Assembly (NCBI RefSeq): GCF_014200505.1
Contig: NZ_JACHBX010000002.1
Location: forward strand, 682,001 to 746,000
Source of the DNA: Massilia aurea
GTDB lineage: Bacteria; Pseudomonadota; Gammaproteobacteria; Burkholderiales; Burkholderiaceae_D
DNA length: 64,000 nucleotides
Direction: 5' to 3'
Shown: one piece after another, positions 135 to 56,622 of the stretch
How the letters are laid out: every line of letters begins with the position of its first letter
Position numbering within the stretch: the first letter of the stretch is position 1
Made by a program: the position numbers and the translations under genes
Notes under the pieces: model-generated
The model's database searches: none
The model's input: only the letters and a program-made list of their open reading frames with translations
What the model was told of the DNA's origin: nothing

Positions 135-968
135 TCAGGTGGCGCCGTGCTTGCGCCGCGCCAGGTCGGTCGTGGGCGGCACCAGCGCGCCGTACAGGCG
201 GCCCGTGGCCTCGTCCCAGTCCAGCAATGCCTGTTCCTGCCGCGCCACGGTGGCAAGGTCGCCACGCGCAATGGGGCCGCTGAGCGCTGCGGCAGGCCCG
301 AGGCGAAACACATTGGCCAGCGTCTCGGTAGCCAGCGGTTGCGCCAGTTCGCGCGCCACCGCTTCGGGAATCCCGGCGGCCTGGTAGGCGCGCAGCGCCG
401 CGTCGAGCACCGTGGTCAGGTAGTTCGACGCAAACACGGCCGCCGCGTGATAGACCGTCTTGGCCGCCCCGTCGATCGGCACGAGGCGCGCGCCGATGGT
501 CTCGAATGCGGGTCCGAGCAACGCCAGCGCTGCTGCATCACCCTCAATGCCGCAGAAGGTGCCGGCGAATTCGCGCGCCACCTGCTGTGGATCGGCAAAG
601 CTGCGGATCGGATGCACGCTGGCCACCAGTGCGCCGCCTGCACGCGCCGCCTGCAGCGCAGTCGATGCTTTCGCGCCGCTGCAGTGGAACATCACCGCGC
701 CAGTCAGGTCGTGCGTCTGCGCCAGCTGCGCAGCGACCGGCTCGATCTGATCGTCGCTCACCGCCAGCAACCAGACTTGCGCCGGGCGCAGCTGCGCAAC
801 ATCGGTGCAGGCGTGGCCAGCGCCGATGAACGCCACCGCCGCCTGCGCGCTGGCGGGCGAACGGGTCAGCACATCCTGCAGCGCGAACGCGCCGCTGGCG
901 GCGAACAGGCGCCCCAGCACGCGGCCGACATGGCCTGCGCCGACCAGGTTCAGCGTCGGGGTCAGCAT
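135..968 (-). CDS. DUF2520/Rossmann-like NAD(P)-binding protein
   Basis: A 277-residue protein with an N-terminal Rossmann fold: after the start MLTPTLNLVGAGHVGRVLG the dinucleotide motif is G10-A-G12-x-x-G15. The C-terminal half is the helical DUF2520 domain seen in proteins distantly related to F420-dependent NADP oxidoreductases and ketopantoate-reductase-like enzymes; the segment around VPIDGAAKTVYHAAAVFASN is typical of it. The true substrate of this family is not known to me. I chose the ATG at 968; an in-frame GTG three codons upstream is possible. The DUF924 gene ends only 10 bases upstream, so the two are probably co-transcribed. Confidence 0.85.
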   Translation of the reverse strand: MLTPTLNLVGAGHVGRVLGRLFAASGAFALQDVLTRSPASAQAAVAFIGAGHACTDVAQLRPAQVWLLAVSDDQIEPVAAQLAQTHDLTGAVMFHCSGAKASTALQAARAGGALVASVHPIRSFADPQQVAREFAGTFCGIEGDAAALALLGPAFETIGARLVPIDGAAKTVYHAAAVFASNYLTTVLDAALRAYQAAGIPEAVARELAQPLATETLANVFRLGPAAALSGPIARGDLATVARQEQALLDWDEATGRLYGALVPPTTDLARRKHGAT

Positions 969-978
969 CGATATCACG

Positions 979-1557
979 TCAGAAACCGGCGCCGGGCTGG
1001 CTCAGGTAGTCGAGTTCTTCGGGTGTCGAGGCGCGCCCCAGGATCGGATTACGGTGCGGGAAGCGGCCGAAGCGCGCAATCACGCCGCGGTGGCGGTGCG
1101 CGTAGTCGAGCACTTCGTCGAAGCCCTCGTGGTCGGCGGCCAGCGCGGTGAACTGGTCGACGGCGAGCTGCTGCATGCCGGCGTCTTCCGCATGCTCGAA
1201 CGGCATGTAGACGAACTGGCGCTCGATGGGTGCCAGCGCCATGTGCTCGCCGGCGTCGACCATCTGGCGCGCTGCGCTCAATGCCAGCACATCGCCGGCG
1301 AACGATTCCGGCGCGCCGCGATACACATTGCGTGTGAACTGGTCGAGCACCAGGATGCGCGCCAGCACGCCGCGCGCACCCTGCTCGTCCCACTCGCGCA
1401 AGCCGCCCGCAATCGCGTGCGTGATCGTCGTGCCGAAGCGTTCGCGGATGACGGCGTCAAACGCGGGATCCTTGCGGTACCACTCGGCGCGCGCCTTGCC
1501 ATGGTCAGGATGGGAAGCTGGCAGGAACCAGAAATCGAGAACTTCTTGTGCGTCCAT
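979..1557 (-). CDS. DUF924 family protein
   Basis: A 192-residue soluble protein that starts MDAQEVLDFWFLPASHPDHG, the standard opening of the DUF924 family (alpha-helical, TPR-like fold). Further family landmarks are the central segment LDQFTRNVYRGAP and the YMPFEHAED motif. Members are widespread in proteobacteria, and I know of no established biochemical role. Length is normal and the reading frame is intact. It lies directly upstream of the DUF2520 gene. Confidence 0.9.
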   Translation of the reverse strand: MDAQEVLDFWFLPASHPDHGKARAEWYRKDPAFDAVIRERFGTTITHAIAGGLREWDEQGARGVLARILVLDQFTRNVYRGAPESFAGDVLALSAARQMVDAGEHMALAPIERQFVYMPFEHAEDAGMQQLAVDQFTALAADHEGFDEVLDYAHRHRGVIARFGRFPHRNPILGRASTPEELDYLSQPGAGF

Positions 1558-1617
1558 GAATAAACCCCGTTGGTATTGTTATGGTGATGCAGTAGATTTT
1601 TATGCACTACAGCGTTA

Positions 1618-2358
1618 TCAATTGCGTGCGTGCGACAGCTGGAACGCTTCGACGCCCTCGGTGGCGCCCAGTTCGCGCGCCAGTTCCGACAACGGTGCGC
1701 CGGTCTTGCGTGACAGCGCCAGCGCCACGAAGCGCCATTCCTGGCGCCCATCGTCACTGCTGATGGTGAGCGAACTGCCGGCGATTTCATAGCCACGCGA
1801 CAGCGCCAGTTCGCGGATCGCCGCTTCGCGCGGCAGGAACTCAGGCCGAAAACGCATCCGCACCGCCACCGCGTGGCGCGACGGCAGCAGCGTCTCCAGG
1901 CGGTTCAGGTAAATCATGATCATCGACGCCAGAAAGGCCAGCCCCATCGCGGCCAGATAAAAGCCGATGCCGACCAGGATGCCGATGACCGACGAGGTCC
2001 AGATCGACGCGGCCGTCGTCAGGCCGCTGATATTGAAGCCTTCGCGCATGATGACGCCGGCGCCGAGAAAGCCGATGCCGGTGACCACGCCCTGGATGAT
2101 CCGGGTCGGATCGACGGCGACCATGCCCGCATGGCCGCCGTACCAGATCTCGGGGTAGCCCGCGAGGATCGTCAGCGCTGCCGACGCCATGCACACGAGG
2201 CCATACGTGCGCATCCCGGCCGCGCGCCCATGGTAGGCGCGCTCGTAGCCGACCAGGAGCCCGAGCAGCAAGGCCCCGAGCAGATGCAGCAGGATCAGGC
2301 CATTGGTGAACAATTCCCGGCCGGACCAGTAGGCCGAGAGCAGGTCGCGTTCCGTCAT
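1618..2358 (-). CDS. MgtC/SapB family membrane protein
   Basis: A 246-residue protein with an N-terminal MgtC/SapB domain of about 150 residues containing several hydrophobic helices. The family signature is LLGLLVGYERAYHGRAAGMR near residues 31-50, with the conserved Arg and Gly residues. The C-terminal third is a soluble ACT-like extension. MgtC proteins act in the inner membrane and have been linked to growth in low magnesium and to modulation of ATP synthase in pathogens; which role applies here cannot be told. It sits downstream of a small hypothetical gene and the aminopeptidase P gene on the same strand. Confidence 0.88.
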   Translation of the reverse strand: MTERDLLSAYWSGRELFTNGLILLHLLGALLLGLLVGYERAYHGRAAGMRTYGLVCMASAALTILAGYPEIWYGGHAGMVAVDPTRIIQGVVTGIGFLGAGVIMREGFNISGLTTAASIWTSSVIGILVGIGFYLAAMGLAFLASMIMIYLNRLETLLPSRHAVAVRMRFRPEFLPREAAIRELALSRGYEIAGSSLTISSDDGRQEWRFVALALSRKTGAPLSELARELGATEGVEAFQLSHARN

Positions 2359-2382
2359 GCGCGTGTCAGCGTGTGGGCGCGC

Positions 2383-2649
2383 TCAGGCCGGCGGCTTCTT
2401 GCGCACCAGCTGCTTTTCGAACGCGATGTCGTTCTTGCTCATGCGCGGTTGCTCCTGCGGCCCCAGGCCCTTGACGAAGGTGACGAAGTCGTCGAGCTCC
2501 ATCGGTGCGCACAGCGGCGGGCTGCCGGGCGCTTCGGACAGGTAGAAGTGGCCATCGCCGGTGCGCGCCATCGAGTACAGCGGATTACCGGTGCGCTGCT
2601 TGAGACGGTCGACCGCGCTGCTGGCGCGTGTGGAACGGGAACTTGCCAT
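2383..2649 (-). CDS. Small conserved hypothetical protein
   Basis: An 88-residue protein with no recognised domain. The N-terminus is Ser/Arg rich (MASSRSTRASSAVDRLKQRT) and is followed by a short folded-looking part (NPLYSMARTGDGHFYLSEAP) and a Lys/Arg-rich tail. Its ATG overlaps the last bases of the upstream aminopeptidase gene (TGACATG arrangement), so translation is probably coupled. The tight spacing and intact frame make it a likely real gene; function unknown. Confidence 0.7.
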   Translation of the reverse strand: MASSRSTRASSAVDRLKQRTGNPLYSMARTGDGHFYLSEAPGSPPLCAPMELDDFVTFVKGLGPQEQPRMSKNDIAFEKQLVRKKPPA

Positions 2650-2650
2650 G

Positions 2651-4492
2651 TCAGATTGCCTCCGTGCGCAGCATGAGCCACTCGAACGCGGCGCCTTCGA
2701 CGTGGGGCGTCAGGCGCGCACGCACGGTGGCGTGGTAGTCGTTGAGCCAGACGATTTCGTCAGGGCGCAGCAGCGAACGATCGAGGCAGCGGGTGTCGAT
2801 CGGGCACAGGGTGAGCGTCTCGAAGGCCAGGTATTCGCCGAATTCGGTCTTGTTCGCGGCGACATTGAGCACCAGGTTTTCGATACGGATGCCCCAGCGG
2901 CCCGGGCGATAGATGCCTGGCTCGATCGACGTGATCATGCCCGGCTCCATCGCGGTATGCTGGTCCGGCGGCACGGCCGGCGAAATCGTCTGCGGACCTT
3001 CGTGCACGTTCAGGAAGTAGCCGACGCCATGGCCGGTGCCGTGGCCGTAGTCGATGCCGGCGGCCCAGATCGGGGCGCGTGCGATCGCGTCGAGCAGCGG
3101 TGCGCGGGTGCCGCGCGGGAAGTGGGCGCTCGACAGCGCGATCAGGCCTTTCAGCACCAGCGTGTAGTCGCGCCGCTGGTCGGCGCTTGGCGTGCCGACC
3201 GGGATCACGCGCGTGATGTCGGTGGTGCCGCCCAGGTACTGGCCTCCCGAGTCGATCAGCAGCAGGCCGTCGCCTTCGATCGTGGCGCAGGTGGCGGCTT
3301 CAGCGCGGTAATGCATGATCGCGCCATTGCTGTTGAAGCCCGCGATGGTCGAGAAACTCGCGCTGACGAAGTTCGGGCGGCGCGCGCGGGCAGCGGTGAT
3401 GCGCGTGTCGATGTCGACTTCGTTGATTGCACTACGGTTTGCGTCCGCCAGCAGCGGCTCGAGCGCGGCGAAGAATTCGCACAGCGCGGCGCCGTCCTGC
3501 TCCATCGTGGCGCGCACGTTGACGGCCTCGCTATCGAGCTTGCGCGACTTGGCGAACGTGGTGGGGTTGATCGCCTCGACCACGTTCACGCCACTGGCCA
3601 CGCTCGCGCGCATGCCGGCCGTGACGCGGCGCGGATCGAGCAGCAGCGTCGCGCCTTCCGGCAGCGCTTCGAGCGCATGCACGGCGTTTTCGTATGGCGC
3701 CAGGTGCACGTCGTCGGCTTCCAGGCGCGCGCGCACCTCAGCCGGCACCTTGCCGTCACCAACGAACAGCGTGGCGTCGCCACGGCCAATCAGCGCATGG
3801 GCCAGGAACACGGGATTGAAGCTGACGTCGGCGCCGCGCAGGTTGAACAGGTAGGCGATGTCGTCGAGCGTCGAGACGAAATGGAAGCCGGCACCATGCG
3901 CTTCCATCGCCGCGCGCGTGGACTGCAGCTTGTCGGCGCGGGTGACGGTGGCAAACGGCGGCAGGTGCTCGAACACGGCGTCGGCCGGCAGCGCCGGGCG
4001 CTCGGTCCACACATCGTCCAGCAGGTCGAGATCGGTGCGCAGCACGATGCCCCTGGCCTGCAACGCGTCGGCCAGCAGGCGTGCACCGGCCAGGCCCAGC
4101 ACGCGCGCATCGACGGCGGCGGTCTGGCCGGCGGCCAGGTTGGCGGCGAGCCAGTCGACGTGCAGCTGACTGGCCGCGCCCGGAATCTTCATCAGCGCGA
4201 TCTCGGTGCCGGCCAGTTCGGTGTCGGCCTGCGTGAAGTAGCGGCCATCGGTCCAGACACCGGCAAATTTCGCGGTGGCGATGAAGGTGCCGACCGAGCC
4301 CGTGAAGCCGGACAGCCATTCACGGCCCTTCCAGTGACCGGGCAGGTATTCCGACAGGTGCGGATCGCTCGACGGCACGATGACGGCGTCGATGCCGTGG
4401 CGCGCCATGGCGGCGCGCAGTTGCGCGAGCCGGTCGGCGCGGAGGGTCTGGGAATCGAGGGAAGTGCGGTCTTGTTCGGTGGCTGCGGACAT
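2651..4492 (-). CDS. Xaa-Pro aminopeptidase, M24B family
   Basis: A 613-residue long-form aminopeptidase P that removes an N-terminal residue next to proline. It has two N-terminal creatinase-like domains (about residues 15-310) and a C-terminal pita-bread catalytic domain. The metal ligands are visible in order: Asp in LLLIDSGGQYLGGTTD, a second Asp in the same block, His in the YGHGTGHGVG block, Glu in SIEPGIY and Glu in RIENLV. The frame stays open far upstream over the divergent phosphoribosyltransferase gene, but homology begins after the ATG at 4492 (MSAATEQDRTSLDSQTLRAD). It is transcribed divergently from that gene with about 144 bases between them. Confidence 0.93.
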   Translation of the reverse strand: MSAATEQDRTSLDSQTLRADRLAQLRAAMARHGIDAVIVPSSDPHLSEYLPGHWKGREWLSGFTGSVGTFIATAKFAGVWTDGRYFTQADTELAGTEIALMKIPGAASQLHVDWLAANLAAGQTAAVDARVLGLAGARLLADALQARGIVLRTDLDLLDDVWTERPALPADAVFEHLPPFATVTRADKLQSTRAAMEAHGAGFHFVSTLDDIAYLFNLRGADVSFNPVFLAHALIGRGDATLFVGDGKVPAEVRARLEADDVHLAPYENAVHALEALPEGATLLLDPRRVTAGMRASVASGVNVVEAINPTTFAKSRKLDSEAVNVRATMEQDGAALCEFFAALEPLLADANRSAINEVDIDTRITAARARRPNFVSASFSTIAGFNSNGAIMHYRAEAATCATIEGDGLLLIDSGGQYLGGTTDITRVIPVGTPSADQRRDYTLVLKGLIALSSAHFPRGTRAPLLDAIARAPIWAAGIDYGHGTGHGVGYFLNVHEGPQTISPAVPPDQHTAMEPGMITSIEPGIYRPGRWGIRIENLVLNVAANKTEFGEYLAFETLTLCPIDTRCLDRSLLRPDEIVWLNDYHATVRARLTPHVEGAAFEWLMLRTEAI

Positions 4493-25789: not shown

Positions 25790-26668
25790 TCAAGCGCGCA
25801 GCCGCGCCAGTACCCCTTCCAGGATGTCAAGGTCGGCGAAATCGATGATCATCTGGCCCCTGCCCTTCGGGCCCATCTTGAACACGACGGGGGTGGCCAG
25901 CTTGTCCGACAGCTCTTCTTCGAGCCGCACGATGTCGCCCGACTTGTCTTTCGCACGAGCGGCTTGCGCCGGCGCGTTGTGTTCGTCGAGCGCGCGCGTG
26001 ACGAGTTTTTCCGTTTCGCGCACCGACAGCCGTTTGGCGATCACCTGATTGGCCAGCGTGATCTGGTGCGCGCTGTCGACCGCCAGCAAGGCACGAGCAT
26101 GACCCATGTCGATGTCGCCGGCCATCAGCATCGTCTGCACCGGTTGCGCCAGGTTGATCAGGCGCAGCAGGTTCGAGACCGCGCTACGCGAGCGGCCCAC
26201 GGCGCCTGCTGCCTGTTCGTGCGTGAAATTGAAATCCGAAATCAAACGGTTGATACCCTGCGCTTCTTCGAGCGGGTTCAGGTCTTCACGCTGGATGTTC
26301 TCGATCAGCGCCATCGCGGCCGCAGCCTGGTCGTCGACGTCGCGCACCAGCACCGGGATTTCATCCAGCCCCGCCATCTGCGCCGCGCGGAAGCGCCGTT
26401 CGCCGGCGATGATCTCATATGGCGTGCTGCTACCCGGCGGCAACGGGCGCACCAGCACCGGTTGCATGATGCCCTGGGTCTTGATCGATGCGGCCAGCTC
26501 CGACAGGCTCACTTCATCCATGCGCGTACGGGGCTGGTACTTGCCGGCCTGGATCTGGGTCACGGCGAGCACGGACGGCGTGTTCGGCACGGCCGGTGCG
26601 GCGTCCAGGTCGCCGCCGAGCAGGGCGTCGAGGCCGCGGCCCAGTCCCTTGAGTTTTTTGGTTGCCAT
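25790..26668 (-). CDS. parB: Chromosome-partitioning protein ParB
   Basis: A 292-residue ParB/Spo0J-type CTPase. The N-terminal box with GLGRGLDALLG, the CTP-binding GERRFRAAQMAGL, the helix-turn-helix FTHEQAAGAVGRSRSAVSNLLRL and the C-terminal dimerisation segment are all visible. It binds parS, loads as a sliding clamp and works with ParA to segregate the origin region. Candidate parS sites lie at 30.3 kb. The parA stop is about 23 bases upstream. Confidence 0.97.
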   Translation of the reverse strand: MATKKLKGLGRGLDALLGGDLDAAPAVPNTPSVLAVTQIQAGKYQPRTRMDEVSLSELAASIKTQGIMQPVLVRPLPPGSSTPYEIIAGERRFRAAQMAGLDEIPVLVRDVDDQAAAAMALIENIQREDLNPLEEAQGINRLISDFNFTHEQAAGAVGRSRSAVSNLLRLINLAQPVQTMLMAGDIDMGHARALLAVDSAHQITLANQVIAKRLSVRETEKLVTRALDEHNAPAQAARAKDKSGDIVRLEEELSDKLATPVVFKMGPKGRGQMIIDFADLDILEGVLARLRA

Positions 26669-26691: not shown

Positions 26692-27462
26692 TTACATGCT
26701 CTTGATGCGCTCGACCATTTCGGCGCCGAAGGCGATGTATGCCTGCGCGCCTTTCGAGGACGGATCGAACGTCACGCCGGGGATGCCGTACGACGGCGCC
26801 TCGGCCAGCCGCACATTGCGCGGGATGATCGTCTTGAAGACCTTGTCGCCGAAATGCTGCTCGAGCTGGCCCGAGACCTGCTGTGACAGCGTCATGCGCG
26901 GATCGAACATCACGCGCAGCAGACCGATGATCTTCAGGTCGGTGTTCAGGTTGGCGTGCACCTTCTTGATCGTGTTGACCAGGTCGGACAAGCCTTCGAG
27001 CGCATAGTATTCACACTGCATCGGGATGATCACGCCGTCAGCGGCGCACAGACCGTTCAAGGTCAGCAGCGACAGCGCGGGCGGACAGTCGACCAGGATG
27101 AAGTCGTAGTCATCGGCCACTGCGGCCAGTGCTTCCTTCAGGCGCCGCTCGCGGTTCTCGAGCGCGACCATCTCGACTTCGGCGCCGGCCAGCTCGCGGT
27201 TGGCAGGCAGCACATCGAAGCGCCCTGCTTCCGAGCGCACGCGCGCCGTGGCCACATCGGATTCGCCCAGCAGCACCTGATAGATCGACGCGGCCAGCTC
27301 GGCCTTGTTGATACCGGCGCCCATCGTGGCATTGCCCTGCGGGTCGAGGTCGACCAGCAGCACGCGCTGGTCCAGTTTGGCCAGGCCTGCGGACAGGTTG
27401 ACGCTGGTGGTGGTCTTGCCTACTCCACCCTTCTGGTTCGCAACGCAAAAAATCTTCGCCAT
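26692..27462 (-). CDS. parA: Chromosome-partitioning ATPase ParA
   Basis: A 256-residue ParA/Soj-type ATPase. The deviant Walker A is NQKGGVGKTTTSVNLS at the N-terminus, Walker A' DLDPQGNATMG follows, and Walker B is FILVDCPPALSLLT. The absence of an N-terminal DNA-binding extension marks it as the chromosomal type. It partners ParB and is located within 6 kb of the putative origin. Confidence 0.97.
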   Translation of the reverse strand: MAKIFCVANQKGGVGKTTTSVNLSAGLAKLDQRVLLVDLDPQGNATMGAGINKAELAASIYQVLLGESDVATARVRSEAGRFDVLPANRELAGAEVEMVALENRERRLKEALAAVADDYDFILVDCPPALSLLTLNGLCAADGVIIPMQCEYYALEGLSDLVNTIKKVHANLNTDLKIIGLLRVMFDPRMTLSQQVSGQLEQHFGDKVFKTIIPRNVRLAEAPSYGIPGVTFDPSSKGAQAYIAFGAEMVERIKSM

Positions 27463-27627: not shown

Positions 27628-28278
27628 TTATGCGGCTCGCTCGATGAATACCAAGTGTCGCTCTGCCTGCAGTCTTGGCACCCATAAGGGCTGCAGGTCC
27701 ACGACTTTCCAGTCCTGTGGCAGGCGCTCGCGTTCCTCGCTTGGCGCCACGCCTTTCAGCGCGATGAATTTGCCGCCCTCGGCCAGCAGATGGCCCGACC
27801 AGTTGACGAAGTCGGACAGGTCAGCAAACGCGCGCGAGGTGATCACGTCGAATGGTTCGCTCACGACCAGATCCTGCACCTTCATCGTGTGCACGCTGAC
27901 ATTGGTCAGCTTCAGTTCTGCCTTCACCTGGTTCAGGAATGCGGTTTTCTTGTGCACGGTGTCGATCATCGCCACGTTCATGTCCGGCCGCACGATGGCC
28001 AGGACGATGCCCGGCAATCCGCCTCCTGCCCCCACGTCCAGCACATTGCGGGCATCGGCAAATGCCGGCACCGCCGCGAGCGAGTCGAGCAGATGGTGCG
28101 TGACCATCTGCTGTGGATCGCGCAGCGACGTCAGGTTGTAGACGGCGTTCCACTTGTTCATCAGCGCGAGATAGCCCATCAGCTTGGTCTGCTGTTCGGG
28201 CGTGATGGCCAGTGTCATGTCCTTGATGCCCTGGTCCAGTACGGCCGCCAGTGCATCATGATCGAAGTTGTATTTCAT
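27628..28278 (-). CDS. rsmG: 16S rRNA (guanine527-N7)-methyltransferase RsmG
   Basis: A 216-residue Rossmann-fold methyltransferase. The SAM site is [17 protein letters not shown] and later blocks are [12 protein letters not shown] and [13 protein letters not shown]. It methylates G527 of 16S rRNA. Its start overlaps the stop of mnmG by four bases (ATGA), the classical gidA-gidB arrangement. Confidence 0.97.
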
Positions 28279-30206
28279 TCGGCCACCTCGGCTGCGACGG
28301 TTGCAAAACCTTTGGCGCCCCGTTTTTTCAGCGTCACCAAGAGCAGTGAAATCGCGGCCGGGGTTACACCCGAGATGCGCGAGGCCTGGCCCAGGGTTTC
28401 GGGTCGCTGCTTGTCGAGCTTCTGACGCACTTCGAACGACAGCGCTTCGATATCCAGATAGTTCAGGTTCTCAGGCAGCTTCATGTTTTCGTAGTGATCG
28501 TGACGCTCGACTTCACGCGCCTGGCGATCGATGTAGCCGGAATATTTAAGTTGAATCTCGACCTGCTCTTTGACAGCGGGATCCTCAACGCCGGGACCGG
28601 CCAGGCTCTGCCCTTCGAGACCACTCATCGTCATCAAGGTGTCGTAGTTCACGCCCGGTCTGCGCAGCAGATCGGCCAGATTGTATTCGCGCTCGAGCGG
28701 CTGGCCGACGATGCGTTCCGACTCGGCCGCCGCCAGGATGCGCGGGTTGACCCACACCGAGCGCAGGCGTTCCAGTTCACGTGCGACGGATTCGCGCTTG
28801 ATCTCGAATGCCGCCCAGCGTGCGTCGTCAACCAGACCCAGCCCGCGACCGATTTCGGTCAGGCGCATGTCGGCATTGTCTTCACGCAGCGACAGGCGAT
28901 ATTCGGCGCGGCTGGTGAACATGCGGTATGGCTCGGCCACACCTTGCGTCGTCAGGTCGTCGACCAGCACGCCGAGGTACGCTTCCGAGCGACCCGGCGT
29001 CCAGGCATCCTTGCCCTGCGTTTGCAGCGCGGCGTTCAAGCCGGCCAGCAAACCCTGGGCCGCCGCTTCTTCGTAGCCGGTGGTGCCGTTGATCTGGCCG
29101 GCGAAGAACAGACCCTTGATCGACTTGGTTTCCAGCGACGCTTTCAAGCCGCGAGGATCGAAATAATCGTATTCGATCGCATAGCCGGGCCGCAGAATGA
29201 ACGCGTTTTCCATGCCGCGCATCGAGCGCACCAGGGCCAGTTGCACGTCGAATGGCAAGCTGGTCGAGATCCCGTTTGGATAGAACTCGTTGGTCGTCAA
29301 GCCTTCCGGCTCGAGGAAGATCTGGTGTGATTCCTTGCTGGCGAAGCGATGGATCTTGTCTTCGATCGACGGGCAATAGCGCGGACCGACACCTTCGATC
29401 ACGCCGGTATACATCGGGCTGCGGTCCAGTCCGGCGCGGATGATGTCGTGCGTGCGCTCGTTGGTGTGCGTGACCCAGCATGGCACCTGCTTCGGATGCA
29501 TCGCCACGTTGCCCATATACGAGAACACCGGCACCAGATCGACGTCACCGGGCTGCTCGGTCAGCAGCGAGAAGTCAATACTGCGGCCATCGATGCGCGG
29601 CGGCGTGCCGGTTTTCAGGCGGCCTTGCGGCAGCTTGAGTTCCTTCAGGCGTGCCGACAATGACGTCGCCGGTGGATCGCCCGCGCGGCCACCGGCATAA
29701 TTCTGCAGGCCGACGTGGATTTTCCCGTCCAGGAAAGTACCGGCCGTGAGTACCACTGCGCGTGCGCGGAAGCTCAGACCCACTTGGGTGACGGCGCCGA
29801 CGACCCGGTCGCCTTCAACGATCAGGTCTTCGACTGCCTGCTGGAACAGCCACAGGTTCGGCTGGTTTTCCAGGCGCGAGCGGATCGCCGCCTTGTACAA
29901 AACGCGGTCGGCTTGCGCGCGGGTAGCACGCACGGCGGGCCCCTTCGATGAATTCAGGATCCTGAACTGGATGCCTGCCTCATCGGTGGCAATGGCCATG
30001 GCGCCGCCGAGGGCATCGACTTCCTTGACCAGGTGTCCTTTGCCGATGCCGCCGATCGACGGATTGCAGGACATGGCGCCCAGCGTTTCAATATTGTGCG
30101 TCAGCAGGAGGGTCTTTTGACCTGTGCGTGCAGACGCGAGTGCAGCTTCGGTGCCGGCATGGCCGCCGCCGACGACGATGACGTCGAATTCAGTTGGAAA
30201 TAGCAT
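28275..30206 (-). CDS. mnmG: tRNA uridine-5-carboxymethylaminomethyl modification enzyme MnmG
   Basis: The 643-residue flavoenzyme (GidA) that with MnmE modifies the wobble uridine of several tRNAs. The FAD-binding motif is [17 protein letters not shown] at the N-terminus. Other signatures are [18 protein letters not shown], the [12 protein letters not shown] block, and the C-terminal Ser/Gly-rich GLxGQ-type helix [13 protein letters not shown]. The length is standard. It is the first gene of the mnmG-rsmG-parA-parB run, which is usual near chromosomal origins. Confidence 0.98.
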
Positions 30207-30293: not shown

Positions 30294-30401
30294 TGTTTCA
30301 CGTGGAACGTCGAAAAAGTTGGACATCGCAGTTGTTTCACGTGGAACGTCGCAACTGATAAAGCGGGGCTGACCCGGCTTCATGATGTTTCACGTGGAAC
30401 A
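30294..30401. promoter_or_regulatory. Cluster of three parS sites
   Basis: Three 16-base near-palindromes occur at 30294-30309 and 30333-30348 (both TGTTTCACGTGGAACG) and at 30386-30401 (TGTTTCACGTGGAACA). They differ from the classical parS TGTTTCACGTGAAACA by one or two bases, and each keeps the TTCACGTG core. They sit in the 202-base gap between mnmG and the TauE/SafE gene, about 2 kb from the putative origin. ParB should bind and spread from here. Confidence 0.92.
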
Positions 30402-31245: not shown

Positions 31246-32073
31246 TCAAGCGGTAGGCGACTTTATGAAGTCGAGCAACAATGCATTCAGGCGATCCGCG
31301 CCCGAGAGCTGCATCCAATGGCCAACACCATCGATACGTTCATAGCGAAAACCTGCACGACATTGCTCGCGCGAATCGAGTATCTGTTGTTCGCCCAATG
31401 CTGGATCGTGCTCGCTCCAGACACCCATCACCGGCACATTGACCGGCAGCCAAGCCCGCGCGGATGATGGCTTGAAATTGGCGCGATAATAATTCAGCGC
31501 TGCCGTCAGGCGACCTTCGGGTGCAAGCGCCGCGATCCAGATATCTTGCTGTTCGCGACTGCGGATCATTTTTCGCAACGCAGCCCAGTCCCCTGCTTTC
31601 AGCAATGCCTCCGCAACGACAGGCGTTTTGAAAACAAGCATGTACCAGAACCGCAGTTTCTGACCGAGACTTGAAGAGGAAATTGCCTTGGGATGGCCGA
31701 CCGACAGGGCGGCATAGCGTACGATGCGTTCCGGCGCATGCATGGCCAGGTGCCAGCCGATCAACGCGCCCCAGTCATGACCGACCACGGCAGCCTTGTC
31801 AATACCGAGCGCATCCATCAGTCGCAATACATCATCGGCCAAAAAAGACACGGCATACGCGCCGACGTCTTGCGGCATATCGGTCTTGCCGTAGCCACGC
31901 AGGTCAGGTGCAATCACACGCAGACCCGCCGCAGCGAGATCCGGAATCTGACGCCGCCAGATCTGGTGCGTGTCAGGAAAACCATGGAGCAGGATCACCG
32001 GCGGGCCTTCGCCAGCCGTCACGTAGTGCATGTTCAGGCCATTGACCGTAGCGTAATGCGACTCGAATTCCAT
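31246..32073 (-). CDS. Alpha/beta hydrolase, epoxide-hydrolase-like
   Basis: A 275-residue alpha/beta hydrolase. His30-Gly31 in LLHGFPDT is the oxyanion motif. The nucleophile position is Asp100 in VVGHDWGAL, not Ser, which fits epoxide hydrolases and haloacid or haloalkane dehalogenases. The catalytic His is in GVGHWMQLS near the end, and the acidic residue is in VWSEHDPAL. A good AAGGGGAG ribosome site supports the ATG at 32073. The gene borders the origin region. Confidence 0.88.
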   Translation of the reverse strand: MEFESHYATVNGLNMHYVTAGEGPPVILLHGFPDTHQIWRRQIPDLAAAGLRVIAPDLRGYGKTDMPQDVGAYAVSFLADDVLRLMDALGIDKAAVVGHDWGALIGWHLAMHAPERIVRYAALSVGHPKAISSSSLGQKLRFWYMLVFKTPVVAEALLKAGDWAALRKMIRSREQQDIWIAALAPEGRLTAALNYYRANFKPSSARAWLPVNVPVMGVWSEHDPALGEQQILDSREQCRAGFRYERIDGVGHWMQLSGADRLNALLLDFIKSPTA

Positions 32074-32302
32074 GCGGCTCCCCTTGGCGCTGACTCGATG
32101 AAACACAGCTTACCAGAACGTAAACGCCTGTCCAGACCCCACCTGTGGATAAGCAAATGGATATCCACAGGTACGGTTTGTGCAGAACTCCGCTTTTGTA
32201 CACAAGCAAAAATCTTGTCCAGATTTGCCACCATGAAGCCGGGTGACTAGTGCACTGCCTTATACGCAGTGTAAGTCGATGATTTTGTTCTCGTTAACCG
32301 GG

Positions 32303-32352
32303 TTGTCCACAGAAAGTGGCCACCCTTACTTATTACTACCAATGTTGTATAC
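32303..32352 (+). promoter_or_regulatory. Origin unwinding module A (degenerate)
   Basis: DnaA box TTGTCCACA at 32303-32311, then a spacer of 18 bases, then TTA-TTA-CTA triplets (32330-32338) and TTGTATAC (32345-32352). The triplets, read on the complementary strand 3' to 5', fit the DnaA-trio rule (G/A-A-T). It is the weakest of the three modules because the run breaks after three triplets. Confidence 0.6.
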
Positions 32353-32607
32353 AGTTATTGGTTGTAAACCTGAGATGCCTGTTTCAAAAAAAAAATTCTG
32401 TCCGTGGCAGATCGAAACAACGCGGTCATTGCAAACACGCTTTCAGGTCTGTGGAGAACCCAATGCATATCCACAGGATGGAATGTGCAAAAGCCCGTTT
32501 TTTTCAATCGTCGGCAAATCTGTCCACCATCGCTGCACCGTCAGCACCAGGGTTCTCCAGCCAGTTTCAAATCGCCTAAACCGTTGAAGTTGTGGAAAAA
32601 TCCAAGC

Positions 32608-32654
32608 TTATCCACACAATCGGCCACGTTTACTATTACTACTATTTTGTATAC
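32608..32654 (+). promoter_or_regulatory. Origin unwinding module B
   Basis: A perfect DnaA box TTATCCACA at 32608-32616 is followed 16 bases later by the triplets CTA-TTA-CTA-CTA-TTT (32633-32647) and then TTGTATAC ending at 32654. Every triplet fits the DnaA-trio pattern on the opposite strand. Confidence 0.75.
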
Positions 32655-32991
32655 AAGCTTTTAAGTAAACAAACTGGATAACTCGCGCGCTGTACATCTT
32701 TCGCCAGAAGCTCGACTGAGCATCGTTCTAAAAGCGTTTTTCAAAAAAAAGAACGTGGGCACAAAACCGCCAGCAATTTGAGATTGCCAGTCAGCGTCGA
32801 TCACTGACAACCAGCGTCCAGGCGCAAAGGTCCTGTGGACAAGCGCCTGCATATCCACAGCATCAACTGTGCAGAACCCCGGCTTTTGGCGACAACCAAA
32901 TTGTTGTCCACGATCCATGCGTGACTCGCGCATGTGTTGTCCCGCGTAAAAAACAGGACTTAACGCGCTGATTCTGTTCAGTAAACGCACC

Positions 32992-33039
32992 TTATCCACA
33001 GAAAATCGTGCGTTTACTTACTACTACTATTTTGTATAC
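32992..33039 (+). promoter_or_regulatory. Origin unwinding module C
   Basis: A perfect DnaA box TTATCCACA at 32992-33000 is followed 17 bases later by the triplets TTA-CTA-CTA-CTA-TTT (33018-33032) and then TTGTATAC (33032-33039). With module B this is the best candidate for the site of first strand opening. It lies about 90 bases before the nucleosidase gene. Confidence 0.75.
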
Positions 33040-33128
33040 AACTCTCTTAATTAAATAAGCAAATAACAGCGCAGCCAAAAAAAAAGCGTTTTGCAGAACG
33101 AAAAACCAGGCCAGTAAATTTGTCTCCA

Positions 33129-33953
33129 ATGGCTGACAATGCTGTGTACAATCCGGCGCTTATGCACAACGGCCCGGCAAAAAAAATGCTTTTAGGCATC
33201 ATCAGCGCGTTGCACGAAGAACAGGCAGGGCTCGTGGAAGCCTTGCAAGGGCCCTCCACGCTCATCCACGGCAAGCGTGAGTACTTTCTCGGACAGCTGT
33301 GGGAAATCGACGCCGTGTGCGTTCTGTCGCGAATTGGCAAGGTTGCTGCCGCTATGACGGCGACAACGCTTGTGGAGAAGTTCGGAGTTACCCACATCCT
33401 GTTCACGGGCGTGGCTGGCGCCGGGGATGCGTCGATCCGGGTTGGCGACATCGTGGTGGCTGAATCGCTGGTCCAGCACGACATGGATGCCAGTCCCCTG
33501 TTCCCCCGTTTCGAGGTGCCATTGACGGGGCAAACGCATTTTCAGCCGGACGCCAGGCTATCGCTGCGGGTGTCGAGTGCCGCGCATGCATTCCTGGACG
33601 AAGACCTGACGCATGCAATCGCTCAGGCTGACCGTGAACAATTCGGCTTGACGCAGCCGCGCGTACACCGTGGCCTGATTGCCAGCGGTGACCTGTTCGT
33701 GCATGAAGCCGTGAAGATCGATGCGATGAATGCCGCGCTGCCAGGCCTGGTTGCGGTGGAGATGGAAGGCGCTGCAGTGGCGCAGGTGTGTCACGAACTG
33801 AATGTGCCGTTTGCCGTCATCCGCGCGATTTCGGACAACGCCAACGAACACGCGGCGCACGACTTCATGGGCTTCGTGAAGACAGTGGCCGCGCAGTACG
33901 CATTCCACATCACCCGGCGCCTGTGCCGGGATCTGGCAGCAGCGCCGCTCTAG
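33129..33953 (+). CDS. 5'-methylthioadenosine/S-adenosylhomocysteine nucleosidase
   Basis: A phosphorylase-fold nucleosidase that cleaves adenine from MTA and SAH in methionine salvage. Visible are LLGIISALHEEQAGL at the start of the domain, FTGVAGAGDASIRVGDIVVAE, the ribose site VAVEMEGAAVAQV, and the catalytic Asp in IRAISDNANEHA. The protein is 274 residues from the ATG at 33129; ATGs at 33162 and 33186 are also possible, and the latter fits the family N-terminus best. No ribosome site decides between them. It overlaps the convergent ald gene by four bases. Confidence 0.85.
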   Translation: MADNAVYNPALMHNGPAKKMLLGIISALHEEQAGLVEALQGPSTLIHGKREYFLGQLWEIDAVCVLSRIGKVAAAMTATTLVEKFGVTHILFTGVAGAGDASIRVGDIVVAESLVQHDMDASPLFPRFEVPLTGQTHFQPDARLSLRVSSAAHAFLDEDLTHAIAQADREQFGLTQPRVHRGLIASGDLFVHEAVKIDAMNAALPGLVAVEMEGAAVAQVCHELNVPFAVIRAISDNANEHAAHDFMGFVKTVAAQYAFHITRRLCRDLAAAPL

Positions 33954-43179: not shown

Positions 43180-43560
43180 GTGTTACCCAACTTTTCTCGG
43201 CCTCAAAATGTGACAAAGTTCACATAGAATTACATAATCTAGAAATTTCTAGGTGCGTAGAAATGGATTTTAGACCGATTTACGCTAATGAAATCATCTT
43301 TAAGCGATAATTTAGAGGAATTTGGCTAAAATTTTATATATTAAAAATTGAGAATAAATTTAAGCTTAATTGAGTAAAATTAAACGACGAAGCAGAATTT
43401 AAGACGATATTTATTATCTGTTCCACGAAGTTCACATTCTATGTAAATTATAATAAAACTATAAGTAACAAGAAGGGCGATGGAAAATTTGCTACTGGAA
43501 GTATCGATAAAGCTAACCATGTAGAACGTTGGAGGATCAAACGAGATGCGACGCGAATTG
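43180..43560. other. AT-rich stretch without a gene
   Basis: About 380 bases of clearly lower GC than the surroundings, with many short stop codons in all frames. It holds a repeated AAGTTCACAT with flanking ATAGAATTACAT / TCTATGTAAATTATA, which are partly inverted to each other, and a dyad CTAGAAATTTCTAG (43239-43252). No protein or RNA gene is recognised. From 43577 the GC rises again with a CCGCCAGC/GCTGGCGG hairpin (43577-43602). Confidence 0.6.
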
Positions 43561-51087: not shown

Positions 51088-52185
51088 ATGTTAAATAAAA
51101 TTCAAATTCTGCTTAGTACTTGCCCAGAACTAAAAGCTAAAAATATTGCTGAAAAGTTGTCCTTGGACAGATCTGCAGTTAGTAAAATTTTGCACGACAA
51201 TAAAGATATTTTTGTACAAGATTTGGGTTATCAGTGGTCACTTATCTCTGATAGCGAGTTGAAGGTGGAATTCATGGAATGTTCTTGGATGTCTGCTGAT
51301 ATTTTCGAAGAATCTTTGCTTAACAAGAATGTTTTAGATGGGAATCATTCGGCAGTTACGTTTGTCATTGCCAAGGACTGCAATATTTTGCTAGAAGCGC
51401 TGGCGCGAATCTTGGCTATTTGCAATCAACTGCGTGCATTAAAGAAGAAAGTTACAATTGATTTCAGTAATTGCAAAAAGAGTATTGGCTATTTCAGCCG
51501 GATTGGACTTTTTGATCAGTTAGAAAAAGATATTGAAATAAAACCATATCGCCCTATGAAATCTAGGGCTACGACCTATGCAGGGAATAATAACAGTGTT
51601 GTGGAACTGCGCTCAATTGATCCTATTTCGCCTGATAGAAAAATTCCAAAAAACCTAAAGGAGAGTTTTGAGGTATGTGCTGGGAAAAGTTATTCCCAAG
51701 TTGCTTTCACAGTATTATCTGAATTATTTGGAAATGTTTATGAGCATTCGGGATCGACCAGACCAGGGTTTGCTGCACTTCAAGCTTACGCAGGTAAGAA
51801 GCCACATATTCAAACGGTTATTTCTGACAGCGGCGTTGGAATTGTCGGCACTTTAATGCCTATATTAGAAAAAAAATATCCTGAGTTACTAAGAAAAATA
51901 AATAGCTCCAAGCTGGACCCACGGGTAGCTTTGTTGACTGAAGTATTTTTAAAAGGAGGCTTCAGCAAATCTGATGATGATGGTCGGGGTTTAGGGTTGA
52001 AGCGTTCAGCCGGTATTGCTAAGCAGTTCAGTGCAAAAATATCTGTACGTCAAGAAACCTTTGAGCTGAGAATGAACTATGTGAACGGACAAATAAAGTT
52101 CTCTCATAGTTTAGGTCTGACAAAGATCTTAGGTACTCACATATGTTTTGATTTTCTACTTGACGATATGCCAAAATCTGGTTAA
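51088..52185 (+). CDS. HTH - HATPase (GHKL) regulatory protein
   Basis: A 365-residue soluble protein. Residues 1-40 form a helix-turn-helix (AKNIAEKLSLDRSAVSKIL). Residues about 90-150 look STAS-like (KKVTIDFSNCKKSIGYFSRIG). From about 195 it is a GHKL-type ATPase domain: N box E212-x-x-x-N216 in SELFGNVYEHSG, G1 box D247-S-G249-V-G251, G2 box D298-G299-R-G301-L-G303-L. No His-phosphotransfer helix or receiver is seen, so it is more like an anti-sigma/serine-kinase-type switch than a sensor kinase. An AGGGTGA ribosome site precedes it. The next gene starts 9 bases after its stop. Codon use is AT-rich. Confidence 0.8.
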   Translation: MLNKIQILLSTCPELKAKNIAEKLSLDRSAVSKILHDNKDIFVQDLGYQWSLISDSELKVEFMECSWMSADIFEESLLNKNVLDGNHSAVTFVIAKDCNILLEALARILAICNQLRALKKKVTIDFSNCKKSIGYFSRIGLFDQLEKDIEIKPYRPMKSRATTYAGNNNSVVELRSIDPISPDRKIPKNLKESFEVCAGKSYSQVAFTVLSELFGNVYEHSGSTRPGFAALQAYAGKKPHIQTVISDSGVGIVGTLMPILEKKYPELLRKINSSKLDPRVALLTEVFLKGGFSKSDDDGRGLGLKRSAGIAKQFSAKISVRQETFELRMNYVNGQIKFSHSLGLTKILGTHICFDFLLDDMPKSG

Positions 52186-52790: not shown

Positions 52791-52852
52791 GAGGCTAGCT
52801 CATCGGGCAATGGTGCCTTAGATGTTAAACGGCTTCATTGAAGCAGAAAATT

Positions 52853-53944
52853 ATGCCTACTTATACCTCCAAAGATGATACCTGCGATATCTTGGTCTGC
52901 GGCTTGGACCTGGCGTTGCGTTCCGTCCGTATCAATGACGACAAACCAACCGGCATGCAAATCGCGGAAGCGGCAGGATTCGCTCCGGTGCCCCAGATCA
53001 CTGTGCTCCAGTGGCTTGCGCATGGTTTAGAGGACGTTCGTCCCACCGAGACGGTGAATATCCGAGAGGGTGTTAACCGTTTCATCGTGGCTGAAAGCGA
53101 GGGTTCTTCACGCTTTCTCATTGATGGTGTTCGCTACGATTGGCCGGCATCGCTTATTTCCATCTCGGTCATCCGCACGCTTGCCGCCGTTTCCGAGAAC
53201 AAAGGTATTTTCTTGGTTGACCCGGAGCGTGGGGAAGTTTTGTTGAGTGAGAATGACGAACTCAATCTGTCTCATCGTGGTGTTGAAAATCTGGTCACGC
53301 ATGCTCCGACTTGGAAGTTGAATGTACAGGGCGTGGCTCTGAGTGTGGACACACCGATAATCAAGGTGCGGAAAGCTTTAGAGCTAGCTGGTGTGAGCAC
53401 TGAACAAGACTGGCATATCTACCTCATCGTCGAAGGCCACGATAAGCGTGAGCTGAGTCTTGATGATGACATTGATCTGACCCAGCCTGGTATCGAGAAA
53501 GTTCGCCTGACGCCAAAGGACGTTGACAATGGCGAGTCGGGACCTTCGACCATACGTCAGTTTTGCCTGCTGCCGGCCGATGAGGCCTTTTTGGATAGTG
53601 CCTACCCTAACTGGCAAACCGTCATCGATAATGCGCGTCAGTGGATCTTGCTGCCGAAGTACAAGCTCCCTGCTGGATATACACAAAGTCTTGTCAACTT
53701 GGCGATTGAGGTCCCGCCCACCTATCCGATGGCCCAGCTCGATATGTTTTACTTGTTCCCAGCTGGCGTCTTATTGACTGGGGTATCAATTGCAGCTACG
53801 GAAGCTTGCGAAACAATCCAAGGTTATCAGTATCAGCGTTGGTCGCGTCACCGCGGCGGCCGCTCAGTATGGCGCCCTGGCGTTGATAATGTGATGACCC
53901 ACATTGCTCTGGTCGAATCGGCTTTGATTAAAGAGGTTCTCTAA
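52853..53944 (+). CDS. Multi-ubiquitin-like protein fused to an E2-like domain
   Basis: A 363-residue protein. Three beta-grasp ubiquitin-like units are inferred at about 11-82 (CDILVCGLDLALRSV onward), 86-150 (RFLIDGVRYDWPAS onward) and 154-222 (WKLNVQGVALSVDTPIIKVR onward, with the clearest ubiquitin-like pattern). Residues 234-363 match the prokaryotic E2 family E fold: VPPTYPMAQLDMFYLF, then GYQYQRWSRH, VWRPGVDNVMTHIALVE. Cysteines are only C11, C16, C238 and C319; C319, 14 residues before the conserved H333, is the only Cys near the expected active site. No unit ends in Gly-Gly. Its stop overlaps the next start (TAATG). The family (multi-ubiquitin, Prok-E2_E) was defined by comparative genomics; function here is inferred. 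Confidence 0.85.
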   Translation: MPTYTSKDDTCDILVCGLDLALRSVRINDDKPTGMQIAEAAGFAPVPQITVLQWLAHGLEDVRPTETVNIREGVNRFIVAESEGSSRFLIDGVRYDWPASLISISVIRTLAAVSENKGIFLVDPERGEVLLSENDELNLSHRGVENLVTHAPTWKLNVQGVALSVDTPIIKVRKALELAGVSTEQDWHIYLIVEGHDKRELSLDDDIDLTQPGIEKVRLTPKDVDNGESGPSTIRQFCLLPADEAFLDSAYPNWQTVIDNARQWILLPKYKLPAGYTQSLVNLAIEVPPTYPMAQLDMFYLFPAGVLLTGVSIAATEACETIQGYQYQRWSRHRGGRSVWRPGVDNVMTHIALVESALIKEVL

Positions 53945-55314
53945 TGCCATCTGCATCGACGCTAGCGCTAACCAACGAACATCATCAGCAACTGCTTCGG
54001 CACCTCTTCCCTGGAGATGGGCTCGAGGCAGCAGCGGTTTTGCTTTGCTCTCGAAGTGTCGGGCCCCGTCTCCGGCTTATGGTGCGAGATTTGTTGCTTG
54101 TGCCACACGAGAACTGCATTCGCGAGGTGGACTTTTTACGATGGCCAGGGAAGGCGATTGAAGAAGCCATCGACATGGCAAGAGAAGATGATCTGTCTTT
54201 GCTTCTCTTGCATTCCCACCCCGGCGGGTACTTCGAATTCTCGCTGCAGGATGATCGCAGCGACCAGTTGACGATACCTTGCATCTTTCAGGCTCTTGGC
54301 CGACTTCATGGTTCGGCCATCATGCTCCCACAAGGTGAAATGTTAGCCAGGGTGTATCGAGATGATATGAAGCCGCAAAAGCTTGAGCTTGTGGCTTTGG
54401 CAGATGACAACATGCGTCTTTGGTGGGCAGACGAAAGCTTTCACAAACGCCCCATGGCGTTTGGAGCCGAATCGCGGCGCGAATTGCATCGCTTGACGGC
54501 AGCAGTGATTGGCGCATCGGGTACTGGATCGATTTGCATGGAGCAGGCATCACGGCTAGGTTTTGGTCGTTTAATCGTGGTGGATTACGACAAGGTCGAA
54601 GAAAAAAATCTGAACCGAATCCTCAATACAAGTATTGCTGACATCGGCGAACTAAAAGTCGACGTGCTTGTACGTGCTGTAACCACTCATCGTGGACCAG
54701 ATGTATCAGTGCCTGTTCCGACAACTATCTTTGATAGGGAAGCAGTGCTGCAGGTTAGCCAGGCCGATGTCATTTTCTGTTGCGTGGATTCAAAAGAAGG
54801 AAGACAGATCGCTGATTTAATTGCATCAGCCTTTCTGATTCCTCTGTTTGACGTAGGCGTATGCATTCCTACCCGTCGTAAAGACGATGACATCGCTATT
54901 CTTGATGTGTGTGCACGGATCGATTACGTGCGGCCTGGTGGTCCTACTCTAGCCGACAGAGGCGTATACACACAAGCTAGCTTGCGTGCAGAATTTCTGA
55001 AGCGCACCGCACCTAAGCAATATGACCAAGAAGTTCAGGACGGGTATATCAAGGGTACGCTTGAAGAGGCCCCTTCGGTAATTTCACTCAACATGCGAGC
55101 GACGGCCGACATGATGCTGGAATTTATCTCTCGCATGTATCCGTTCAGGCATGATTCGAACAAAAAGTATTCGCGGAGGCAGCTTAGTTTTGCCGCTGGT
55201 GAAGAAGAATATATACCCGAGACTGGGTTTACCACAGGCATAAATCCATTACTTGCGCGTGGAGCCCAAGAGCCGTTAATTGGACTGCCAGCGCTCAATA
55301 GCAAGGGGGCTTAA
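53944..55314 (+). CDS. JAMM (JAB) peptidase fused to ThiF/E1-like adenylyltransferase
   Basis: A 456-residue fusion. The JAB domain (about 15-140) has the full JAMM set: E28, H90-S-H92-P and S100-x-x-D103. The ThiF/E1 domain (about 180-400) has the nucleotide loop VIGASGTGSICMEQASRLGF, D214 and D216 in IVVDYDKVEEKNLNRI with N222, N224 and R225, and K238. At the position where relatives carry CL-x-C after PGG, this protein has PGGPTLADRGVY. JAB would remove or trim ubiquitin-like tags and E1 would activate them by adenylation. Direct coupling (TAATG) to the multi-ubiquitin gene shows they work together. Confidence 0.87.
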   Translation: MPSASTLALTNEHHQQLLRHLFPGDGLEAAAVLLCSRSVGPRLRLMVRDLLLVPHENCIREVDFLRWPGKAIEEAIDMAREDDLSLLLLHSHPGGYFEFSLQDDRSDQLTIPCIFQALGRLHGSAIMLPQGEMLARVYRDDMKPQKLELVALADDNMRLWWADESFHKRPMAFGAESRRELHRLTAAVIGASGTGSICMEQASRLGFGRLIVVDYDKVEEKNLNRILNTSIADIGELKVDVLVRAVTTHRGPDVSVPVPTTIFDREAVLQVSQADVIFCCVDSKEGRQIADLIASAFLIPLFDVGVCIPTRRKDDDIAILDVCARIDYVRPGGPTLADRGVYTQASLRAEFLKRTAPKQYDQEVQDGYIKGTLEEAPSVISLNMRATADMMLEFISRMYPFRHDSNKKYSRRQLSFAAGEEEYIPETGFTTGINPLLARGAQEPLIGLPALNSKGA

Positions 55315-55725: not shown

Positions 55726-56622
55726 ATGTCAAAATTTAATTTTGAGCAAATTGGAAAAAGTGTAGAAGCGCTTTTAAAAGCCATGACGTTTTTTTCTAAG
55801 ATTGGAATATTGACCGGAGGCATTTGCGTGCTAGGATACTTTTTGAGAATTGGTCATTTTCCACAGGGATTAACGATAGGCGACGGTTTGCTTTTTATGC
55901 TAACGGCTGTTTGCTTTGGAATAATCTATGTGCTGTTTGTAGTAAGCTTGGTCTCTCTAGGCGTAGTCATGTCACCAGTAAGTAAGGGGCTGACAAAATT
56001 ATATATTTGGTTGTATAAATTTCGAAAAACACGTCCCCCATCACAAGTGTACGATTTCGCTAAATTTAGTTTAGAGTACTTTATATTCGCTATCTTTGCT
56101 GTACTTTTTATTTTGGTATTAGGTCGAGATAATTCTAGTGCCTATTGGAATTTGCCGATTCTGTCTATCGCTATGTATTTCTTTTATTCTAGTTTCATTT
56201 CCGCTGGGGCTAAAATAAGAAATTTGGAGTTCGCTGAAAATTCTCTTTTTAAAATCGAGGAGTATGGAGATTTGGCTCAAGCTAAAATAAAGAAGTTGCG
56301 CAAAGCGCAGATGCTTAGCTTAGGACTGATTCTGATTATGCCTATTCTTCTTGGTGGCGTTACTGGTCAACTTCTCGACGGTGCTATGCGGCAAGCCAAT
56401 ATTCGAATAGAAAGCGCTACAATTTTCGTTAAGGAGCCGTATGCTTCACTTGTCCCTTCAGTAAAAAGATCCAAAACACAACCGTTAGCAATGCAATATG
56501 TGAAATTTGATGGAATACTAATTTTATCGAAAGGAATAGGAAATATGACCGTGTTGTATCTTGCTGACGGAAAATCCAAAAAACGGTTAGAAGTGCCAAA
56601 TGATCAGTTAATAGTGAATTAA
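55726..56622 (+). CDS. Five-span membrane protein of unknown function
   Basis: A 298-residue protein with hydrophobic helices at about 24-42, 52-80, 113-132, 142-160 and 196-214, then a C-terminal soluble tail (about 220-298) with two beta-rich stretches. No family is recognised. It is very AT-rich. It ends the cassette and could be a membrane effector, a target of conjugation, or unrelated cargo. An AGGAACAAG-like ribosome site lies before the ATG. Confidence 0.7.
   Translation: MSKFNFEQIGKSVEALLKAMTFFSKIGILTGGICVLGYFLRIGHFPQGLTIGDGLLFMLTAVCFGIIYVLFVVSLVSLGVVMSPVSKGLTKLYIWLYKFRKTRPPSQVYDFAKFSLEYFIFAIFAVLFILVLGRDNSSAYWNLPILSIAMYFFYSSFISAGAKIRNLEFAENSLFKIEEYGDLAQAKIKKLRKAQMLSLGLILIMPILLGGVTGQLLDGAMRQANIRIESATIFVKEPYASLVPSVKRSKTQPLAMQYVKFDGILILSKGIGNMTVLYLADGKSKKRLEVPNDQLIVN

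Follow-up and report, generated by a model that had tools for sequence, protein, structure and literature searches.

Results

The window, by which we mean the whole 64-kb stretch of DNA analysed here, belongs to the 5.39-Mb draft genome of a Massilia/Telluria-group bacterium. Within it, about 1 kb of GC-poor DNA (48% GC over 32001–33000) separates an alpha/beta hydrolase gene from a phosphorylase-superfamily nucleosidase gene, both assigned by Pfam; the latter (33120–33953, plus strand; PNP_UDP_1) forms the right border of the candidate origin. To the left, all on the minus strand, lie parB (25790–26668; Pfam ParB_N and HTH_ParB), parA (26692–27462; AAA_31 and CbiA), rsmG (gidB; 27628–28278; GidB) and mnmG (gidA; 28275–30206; GIDA). 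Three perfect parS sites, GTTCCACGTGAAAC, follow on the minus strand at 30295, 30334 and 30387 (span 30295–30400), 1.7–1.9 kb from the three-unit locus described below. The dnaA gene is 274 kb distant from that locus. Elsewhere in the window, adjacent genes at 52838–55314 encode one protein combining Multi_ubiq with Prok-E2_E and another, E1-like, of JAB-ThiF type with PADLOC E1-E2 matches, a pair that is a bacterial ubiquitin-like conjugation system. It sits in a GC-poor island at about 50–57 kb together with ORFs at 51088–52185 and 55726–56622, one with an HATPase_c match below the curated cut-off and the other without a Pfam match.

Between the hydrolase and nucleosidase genes we found three tandem units of about 225 bp each (32144–33057), every one extending from a reverse DnaA box at −158/−159 to about +65 of its last DnaA box. 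The order of parts is the same throughout: distal DnaA boxes of alternating orientation, an IHF-like site, the last DnaA box, DnaA-trio-like triplets and an AT-rich stretch. Unit A (32144–32368, plus strand) has DnaA boxes at 32144(−), 32161(+), 32179(−) and 32196(+), a minus-strand IHF-like site (32272–32284; 1 mismatch to YAAnnnnTTGATW), a last box TTGTCCACA identified by box scan (32303–32311, plus) and an AT-rich element; its plus-strand triplets, TTA-c-TTA-TTA-CTA, and TTGTATAC at 32345–32352 together occupy 32326–32353. Unit B (32450–32673, plus) has boxes at 32450(−), 32467(+), 32484(−) and 32591(−), an IHF-like site with 2 mismatches (32577–32589, minus), a last box TTATCCACA from the same scan (32608–32616, plus) and an AT-rich element; its trios TTA CTA TTA CTA CTA (32630–32644) and the palindrome TTGTATACAA together occupy 32630–32656 on the plus strand. 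Unit C (32834–33057, plus) carries boxes at 32834(−), 32851(+) and 32868(−), an IHF-like site with 1 mismatch (32961–32973, minus), the scanned last box TTATCCACA (32992–33000, plus), an AT-rich element, and the triplets TTA-c-TTA-CTA-CTA-CTA with TTGTATACAA (33014–33041, plus).

A sequence-only reading of this DNA had proposed three copies of a 300–380 base unit. The three copies are evident in a 55-nt direct repeat that begins at 32143, 32449 and 32833, at spacings of 306 and 384. The conserved unit is about 225 bp, and since the variable part is the spacer between units, the figure of 300–380 measures the repeat spacing. The AT-rich sequence TTGTATAC, which that reading had placed at the end of every copy, is confined in the 64-kb window to three positions, 32345, 32647 and 33032; each copy here has it, whereas many relatives have another AT-rich sequence in its place. 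Because two copies sit inside the palindrome, TTGTATAC gives 5 strand matches, against 0.36 expected, a number equalled in none of 100 shuffles. The window contains 46 DnaA-box-like 9-mers (at most 1 mismatch to TTATNCACA), compared with 24.6 expected, and 15 of them fall in 32144–33000. Over 32000–33200, the three 40-bp stretches of lowest stability coincide with the opening elements (33018, 32629 and 32329), that of unit A ranking third; the minimum of duplex stability for the whole window lies elsewhere, at 43331–43475, so that the origin elements are not its lowest points. To the right of unit C, 33143–33168 holds an extra pair of DnaA-box-like sequences 17 bp apart and without triplets, and in 12 of the 25 genus genomes TTATGCACA is again present to the right of the last unit, at variable distance.

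We assembled two sets of related units. The genus set consists of regions from 25 genomes, in which a profile scan for the opening element yielded 73 units. The named-locus set came from a pattern scan of named genomes that required one strong unit, and comprises at least 118 loci, among which L174/L224 and L191/L241 are two pairs that are each pieces of one contig. The 73-unit genus set and the 260-unit named set overlap, with some records shared.

Unit geometry was constant in both sets. A reverse box at −158 to −160 together with a forward box at −141 to −143 (at most 2 mismatches to TTATCCACA) was present in 73/73 genus units; a further reverse box lay at −123 to −125 in 61/73, and one at −17 in 36/73. 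Among the named loci listed, 262 of 265 units had the reverse box (at most 1 mismatch) at −156 to −160. Each unit also has a part that had escaped the sequence-only reading, the IHF-like site. The IHF consensus is TAAnnnnTTGATW, as given in the accessible text of PMC10380432, and a site within 2 mismatches begins exactly at −31 in 72/73 genus units and in 258/260 units among the named loci listed (shuffled mean 6.6, maximum 13); at a threshold of 1 mismatch the counts are 40/73 and 204/260, respectively. An IHF consensus site between the proximal box and the further boxes, a feature of the E. coli type, is present. Inter-unit distance ranges from 305 to 3570 among the flanked named loci listed, without change to the geometry inside the units. 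The 158-base distance would correspond to about 15 turns of B-DNA.

The units were detected through their opening element, and arrays without the element were therefore sought separately. Among 120 box pairs in the 25 genus loci, 102 lay inside units, and the 18 outside were near-copies of one sequence; no DnaA-box array without an opening element was found in this search. Orphan box clusters as remnants of lost units were considered and rejected, as all 18 outside pairs repeat that one sequence. Its copy in the window lies at 33371–33396, within the nucleosidase frame. The three opening modules proposed for the locus are borne out.

An alignment of the interval from box to triplets shows invariant columns. 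In this genome the triplets read CTA/TTA on the plus strand, with the DnaA-trios on the opposite strand. In the window, the longest canonical CTA/TTA run is 3 in unit A, 5 in B and 4 in C, beginning 18, 13 and 17 bases past the last box; the spacer of 16–18 bases proposed from the sequence fits A and C, but fits B only if counted from its first CTA. Across the genus set, runs of at least three canonical triplets were found in 11/23 A units, 15/23 B units, 4/23 C units and 0/4 divergent units (chance 0.3%). Relaxing the pattern to at least three [CT][CT]A triplets recovered 73/73 units, compared with 2.1% of shuffles: units without a canonical run keep the three-base rhythm, with C as the middle base of some triplets. 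Every unit of the genus set thus keeps the three-base rhythm, and it is unit B that best preserves the canonical motif. With canonical runs commonest in B and scarce in C, B comes closest to the canonical form; A and C may be weaker units or helpers.

The program rule of Pelliciari 2021 (PMC8287927), as given in the accessible text, calls for a DnaA box with at least 3 contiguous NAN trios within 16 bp. In the window, such trios begin at 14 bp in unit A (in a loose form), at 13 bp in B and at 17 bp, one over, in C. In the genus set, a first run of three contiguous NTN triplets at a spacing of at most 16 occurs in 1/23 A, 15/23 B and 3/23 C units, and the strict rule would fail many of the genus units. 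Trios without the middle adenine are mentioned as conceivable in the same text (PMC8287927).

The first interpretation of the locus held module A to be degraded and offered decay of one copy as an outcome of duplication. Some evidence agrees with a recent duplication of one origin element whose copy A is decaying: with model R1, unit A scores lowest in its own genome (42.5 bits versus 50.4 and 47.7), and its last box TTGTCCACA has 1 mismatch. A second model, however, does not rank A lowest (A 45.6, B 48.1, C 44.4), and the TTGTCCACA box is shared by 10 of 23 unit-A copies across the genus, TTATCCACA being found in another 10. In a tree of the 73 units, a branch supported at 100/99 (bootstrap not fully settled) sets apart 23/23 unit-A copies of the three-unit genomes, from as many species; B and C separate less cleanly. 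Between-species identity of the 60-bp element is 0.785 for A, 0.791 for B and 0.792 for C over 80 sampled pairs. The tree and the equal cross-species identity led us to reject decay of unit A; neither the degraded module nor the decayed copy is supported, and recent duplication followed by decay can scarcely be credited. Because the A copies branch apart and the A element is equally conserved, the A/BC duplication predates the genus, with no decay seen; growth by duplication stands as an event, provided that it is older than the genus. We also considered concerted evolution of B and C and set it aside: their identity within genomes (0.652) is barely above that between genomes (0.630), so concerted evolution is not needed. 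The inter-unit spacers could be aligned over only 62–64% of their length, which made spacer conservation unusable as a measure.

The arrangement is widespread in the family. Three tandem units are present in 23/25 genus genomes and a divergent pair in the other 2/25 (G002, G015). A nucleotide search matched the region in 24/24 other genus genomes and in none of 16 genomes from other families of the order. At E ≤ 1, the opening-element model matched 264/294 sampled family genomes, in 36/44 genera, leaving 30 of the 294 without a match. Among the matches listed, at least three were found in 24/27 genomes of the same genus and in 26/26 genomes of the genus taken as Janthinobacterium. A fourth match was counted in G007 and G321. 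Forty chosen family genomes had mostly tandem pairs or triplets, some of them inverted, and three had no match.

At least two units are present at 106 of the 118 named loci listed (at least 118 in all), which cover Massilia, Telluria, Janthinobacterium, Duganella, Rugamonas, Undibacterium, Herbaspirillum, Collimonas, Herminiimonas, Paucimonas, Glaciimonas, Oxalicibacterium, Sapientia, Keguizhuia and unplaced records. Among those listed, 58 loci are flanked, meaning by 1.5 kb on each side, a span in which a unit 3 kb off could be missed; 30 of them have two units, 24 three and 4 one (two or three in 54/58), arranged in tandem at 50, divergently at 2, convergently at 2 and singly at 4. The divergent pairs are those of Massilia solisilvae and M. 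agilis (L087, L100), with two units only, back to back, whose array end boxes start 72 bases apart. At nine wide-spaced loci, chosen for their spacing from the first 80 of the 118 listed (Duganella, Rugamonas and two unplaced Oxalobacteraceae), neighbouring units lie 3.0–3.6 kb apart with an ORF of 895–1071 aa between them. One such intervening gene, in Duganella (L181, 2259–5051), is a c-di-GMP Cache-PAS-GGDEF-EAL gene between two complete origin units. Outside the family, the element model gave weak matches, in 21 of 25 matching genomes, among 160. Under a simple rule, 11 extra-family loci comprised 3 with a pair, 5 with one element and 3 with none. The extra-family pairs are tandem and 430 bp apart in L337 and L339 (f49), and facing and 3 kb apart in L335 (f31); the box geometry of these box-plus-triplet pairs differs.

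Having described the units, we asked whether the locus is the chromosomal origin. It carries the DnaA-box cluster of a DnaA-dependent oriC, and strand composition and KOPS polarity switch in relatives, as judged by sampled stretches. KOPS, the FtsK-orienting motif GGG(A/C/T)AGGG, which tells more than GC skew in this group, was counted in 20 sampled stretches each of G007 and G022; its orientation has been applied likewise to Burkholderia cenocepacia, according to the available text of PMC4948915. G007 had +15/−10 sites to the right of the locus, the contrary ones coming from the stretches furthest off, and +3/−29 to the left. G022 had +21/−2 to the right and +5/−22 to the left, and the last stretch on the left, some 180 kb from the locus, was already +2/−0, so that the switch is bracketed only coarsely. 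Counts in G321 were +10/−19 left of the locus and +21/−2 right of it, and in G087 they were mixed on the left (+12/−11) and +15/−5 on the right. GC skew in G087 averaged −0.017 on the left (8/11 stretches negative) and +0.014 on the right (9/9 positive), changing sign at the locus and not at dnaA, which is at the contig start. In both G321 and G087, dnaA lies at 0.8–2.5 kb of the contig, with the locus at about 287 kb in the former and 364 kb in the latter.

The window's own contig has too few KOPS sites, and GC skew, weak in the group, was unclear over 14 sampled stretches of the same genome. At closer range, in 250-bp bins around unit C, mean base skew is negative from −1750 to +250 and positive from +250 to +1000, and it does not switch between units. 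Left of −2000 it is for the most part positive, and past +1250 it returns to negative values. With these further reversals, and with genes as a confounder, the skew does not give a clean signal of an origin.

The weak GC skew, the draft state of the genome and the 274 kb to dnaA would also suit a DnaA-binding control region, serving titration, reactivation or promoter control, rather than an origin. Such a region would account poorly for the switch of KOPS polarity seen in relatives close to the locus, the change of GC-skew sign at the locus in G087, the three parS sites with parAB alongside and the AT-rich opening elements. The opening-element model has three matches in the genome at E ≤ 1, those with coordinates all at the locus, and there is no further unit-model match at that threshold under strict filters. 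We consider a control region very improbable; the locus is probably the chromosomal origin of this bacterium. Its identification as such in the sequence-only reading gains from the KOPS switch and the G087 skew change in relatives and from the three parS sites nearby, and is very probable.

Discussion

The reading that we favour, and hold to be reasonably likely on the sequence evidence, is of an origin with several complete tandem unwinding units, at least two of them able to open, either redundantly or in stages. The distal array and last box would both be filled by DnaA, and a bend made at the −31 site by IHF (or HU) would let the array, about 15 helical turns off, meet the opening site. 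DnaA would spread onto the triplets, melting the AT-rich stretch, at which the helicase would be loaded. From the retention of all parts at fixed spacing in the units we infer that at least two can open, and functional multiplicity of the units is likely. Weighed against more than one gate are the canonical runs missing in many units, the 4 of 58 flanked loci listed with one detectable unit, the 30 of 294 family genomes without a match and the noise in KOPS polarity.

A single gate could instead serve the whole locus, B as the most canonical or C by the local skew change, with the other units looping in as enhancers of DnaA loading or timing, in the manner of oriC1 of bipartite origins. B. subtilis and epsilonproteobacteria have bipartite origins that open at a single site, as described in the accessible text of PMC13220808 and PMC5043019. 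Canonical runs are most frequent in B (15/23) and rare in C (4/23), the mean local GC skew becomes positive immediately to the right of C, and there is no skew switch between units. Helpers, however, would need neither an AT-rich element nor triplets, yet the rhythm is present in 73/73 genus units, and the cross-species identity of the element is equal for A, B and C. Units are also retained where an ORF separates them by 3 kb and where they converge or diverge. Since the units retain the element and no array lacking it was found, several openable units are favoured, and a single gate seems rather unlikely.

A bolder form of the several-unit reading would have two or three autonomous mini-origins, each openable alone by DnaA and IHF, with different units firing in different cells or loading separate helicases, and kept by selection through much of the Oxalobacteraceae; the divergent pair of M. 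solisilvae and M. agilis could then send one helicase each way. We regard this as possible rather than probable.

Two or three complete sets make redundant gates at a bacterial origin testable through natural variants, which also bear on the placing of two helicases for replication in both directions and on why spare copies stay. The fixed distances, 158 to the distal box and 31 to the IHF-like site, allow origin geometry to be read out from evolution, and triplets whose middle base has changed probe the tolerance of DnaA on single strands. Surveys that take the best candidate per origin would miss reiterated units. Titles and abstract openings of the open-access papers listed by full-text searches gave no account of repeated opening elements in one origin, and one may be in print elsewhere.

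Model bacterial origins are described with one opening site. A basal origin unwinding system (BUS), of the B. subtilis type, was reportedly set out by Richardson in 2016. The present units resemble the BUS, as presented in the accessible text of PMC8287927, in having a DnaA box, a short spacer, DnaA-trio triplets and an AT-rich stretch, and the gap of 13 between box and triplets in unit B is at the edge of the peak of 10–13 given there. They differ in that there are three per origin and that many units have a changed middle base in the triplets. The survey in PMC8287927, as its available text describes it, kept the best-scoring candidate or candidates, leaving almost all genomes with one, so that copy number was not assessed in that survey.

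With E. coli oriC the units share an opening element, a proximal box aimed at it, an IHF site and further boxes, as laid out in the accessible part of PMC10380432, and the locus likewise adjoins gidA at a distance from dnaA. E. coli oriC has one DUE, whereas three AT-rich elements are found here, with all the parts repeated and the distal boxes pointing in alternate directions. DnaA-box clusters lie near the main origin of Burkholderia cenocepacia, whose exact origin is unclear, and of Cupriavidus, judging from the accessible text of PMC4948915 and PMC2864759. Multiple origins per chromosome have also been considered (Gao 2015, as cited in the available text of PMC10225481); such chromosomes are alike in having more than one potential start, and differ in that the units described here lie within one origin region.

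The bipartite origins of B. subtilis, H. pylori and other epsilonproteobacteria likewise have several DnaA box clusters, sometimes with a gene between them. In those origins one sub-region opens, according to the accessible text of PMC13220808 and PMC5043019, whereas here every unit carries, by sequence, an AT-rich element, triplets and an IHF-like site. The reiteration of complete opening sets within this probable DnaA-dependent origin is real and conserved, and the case for it is stronger than first noted.
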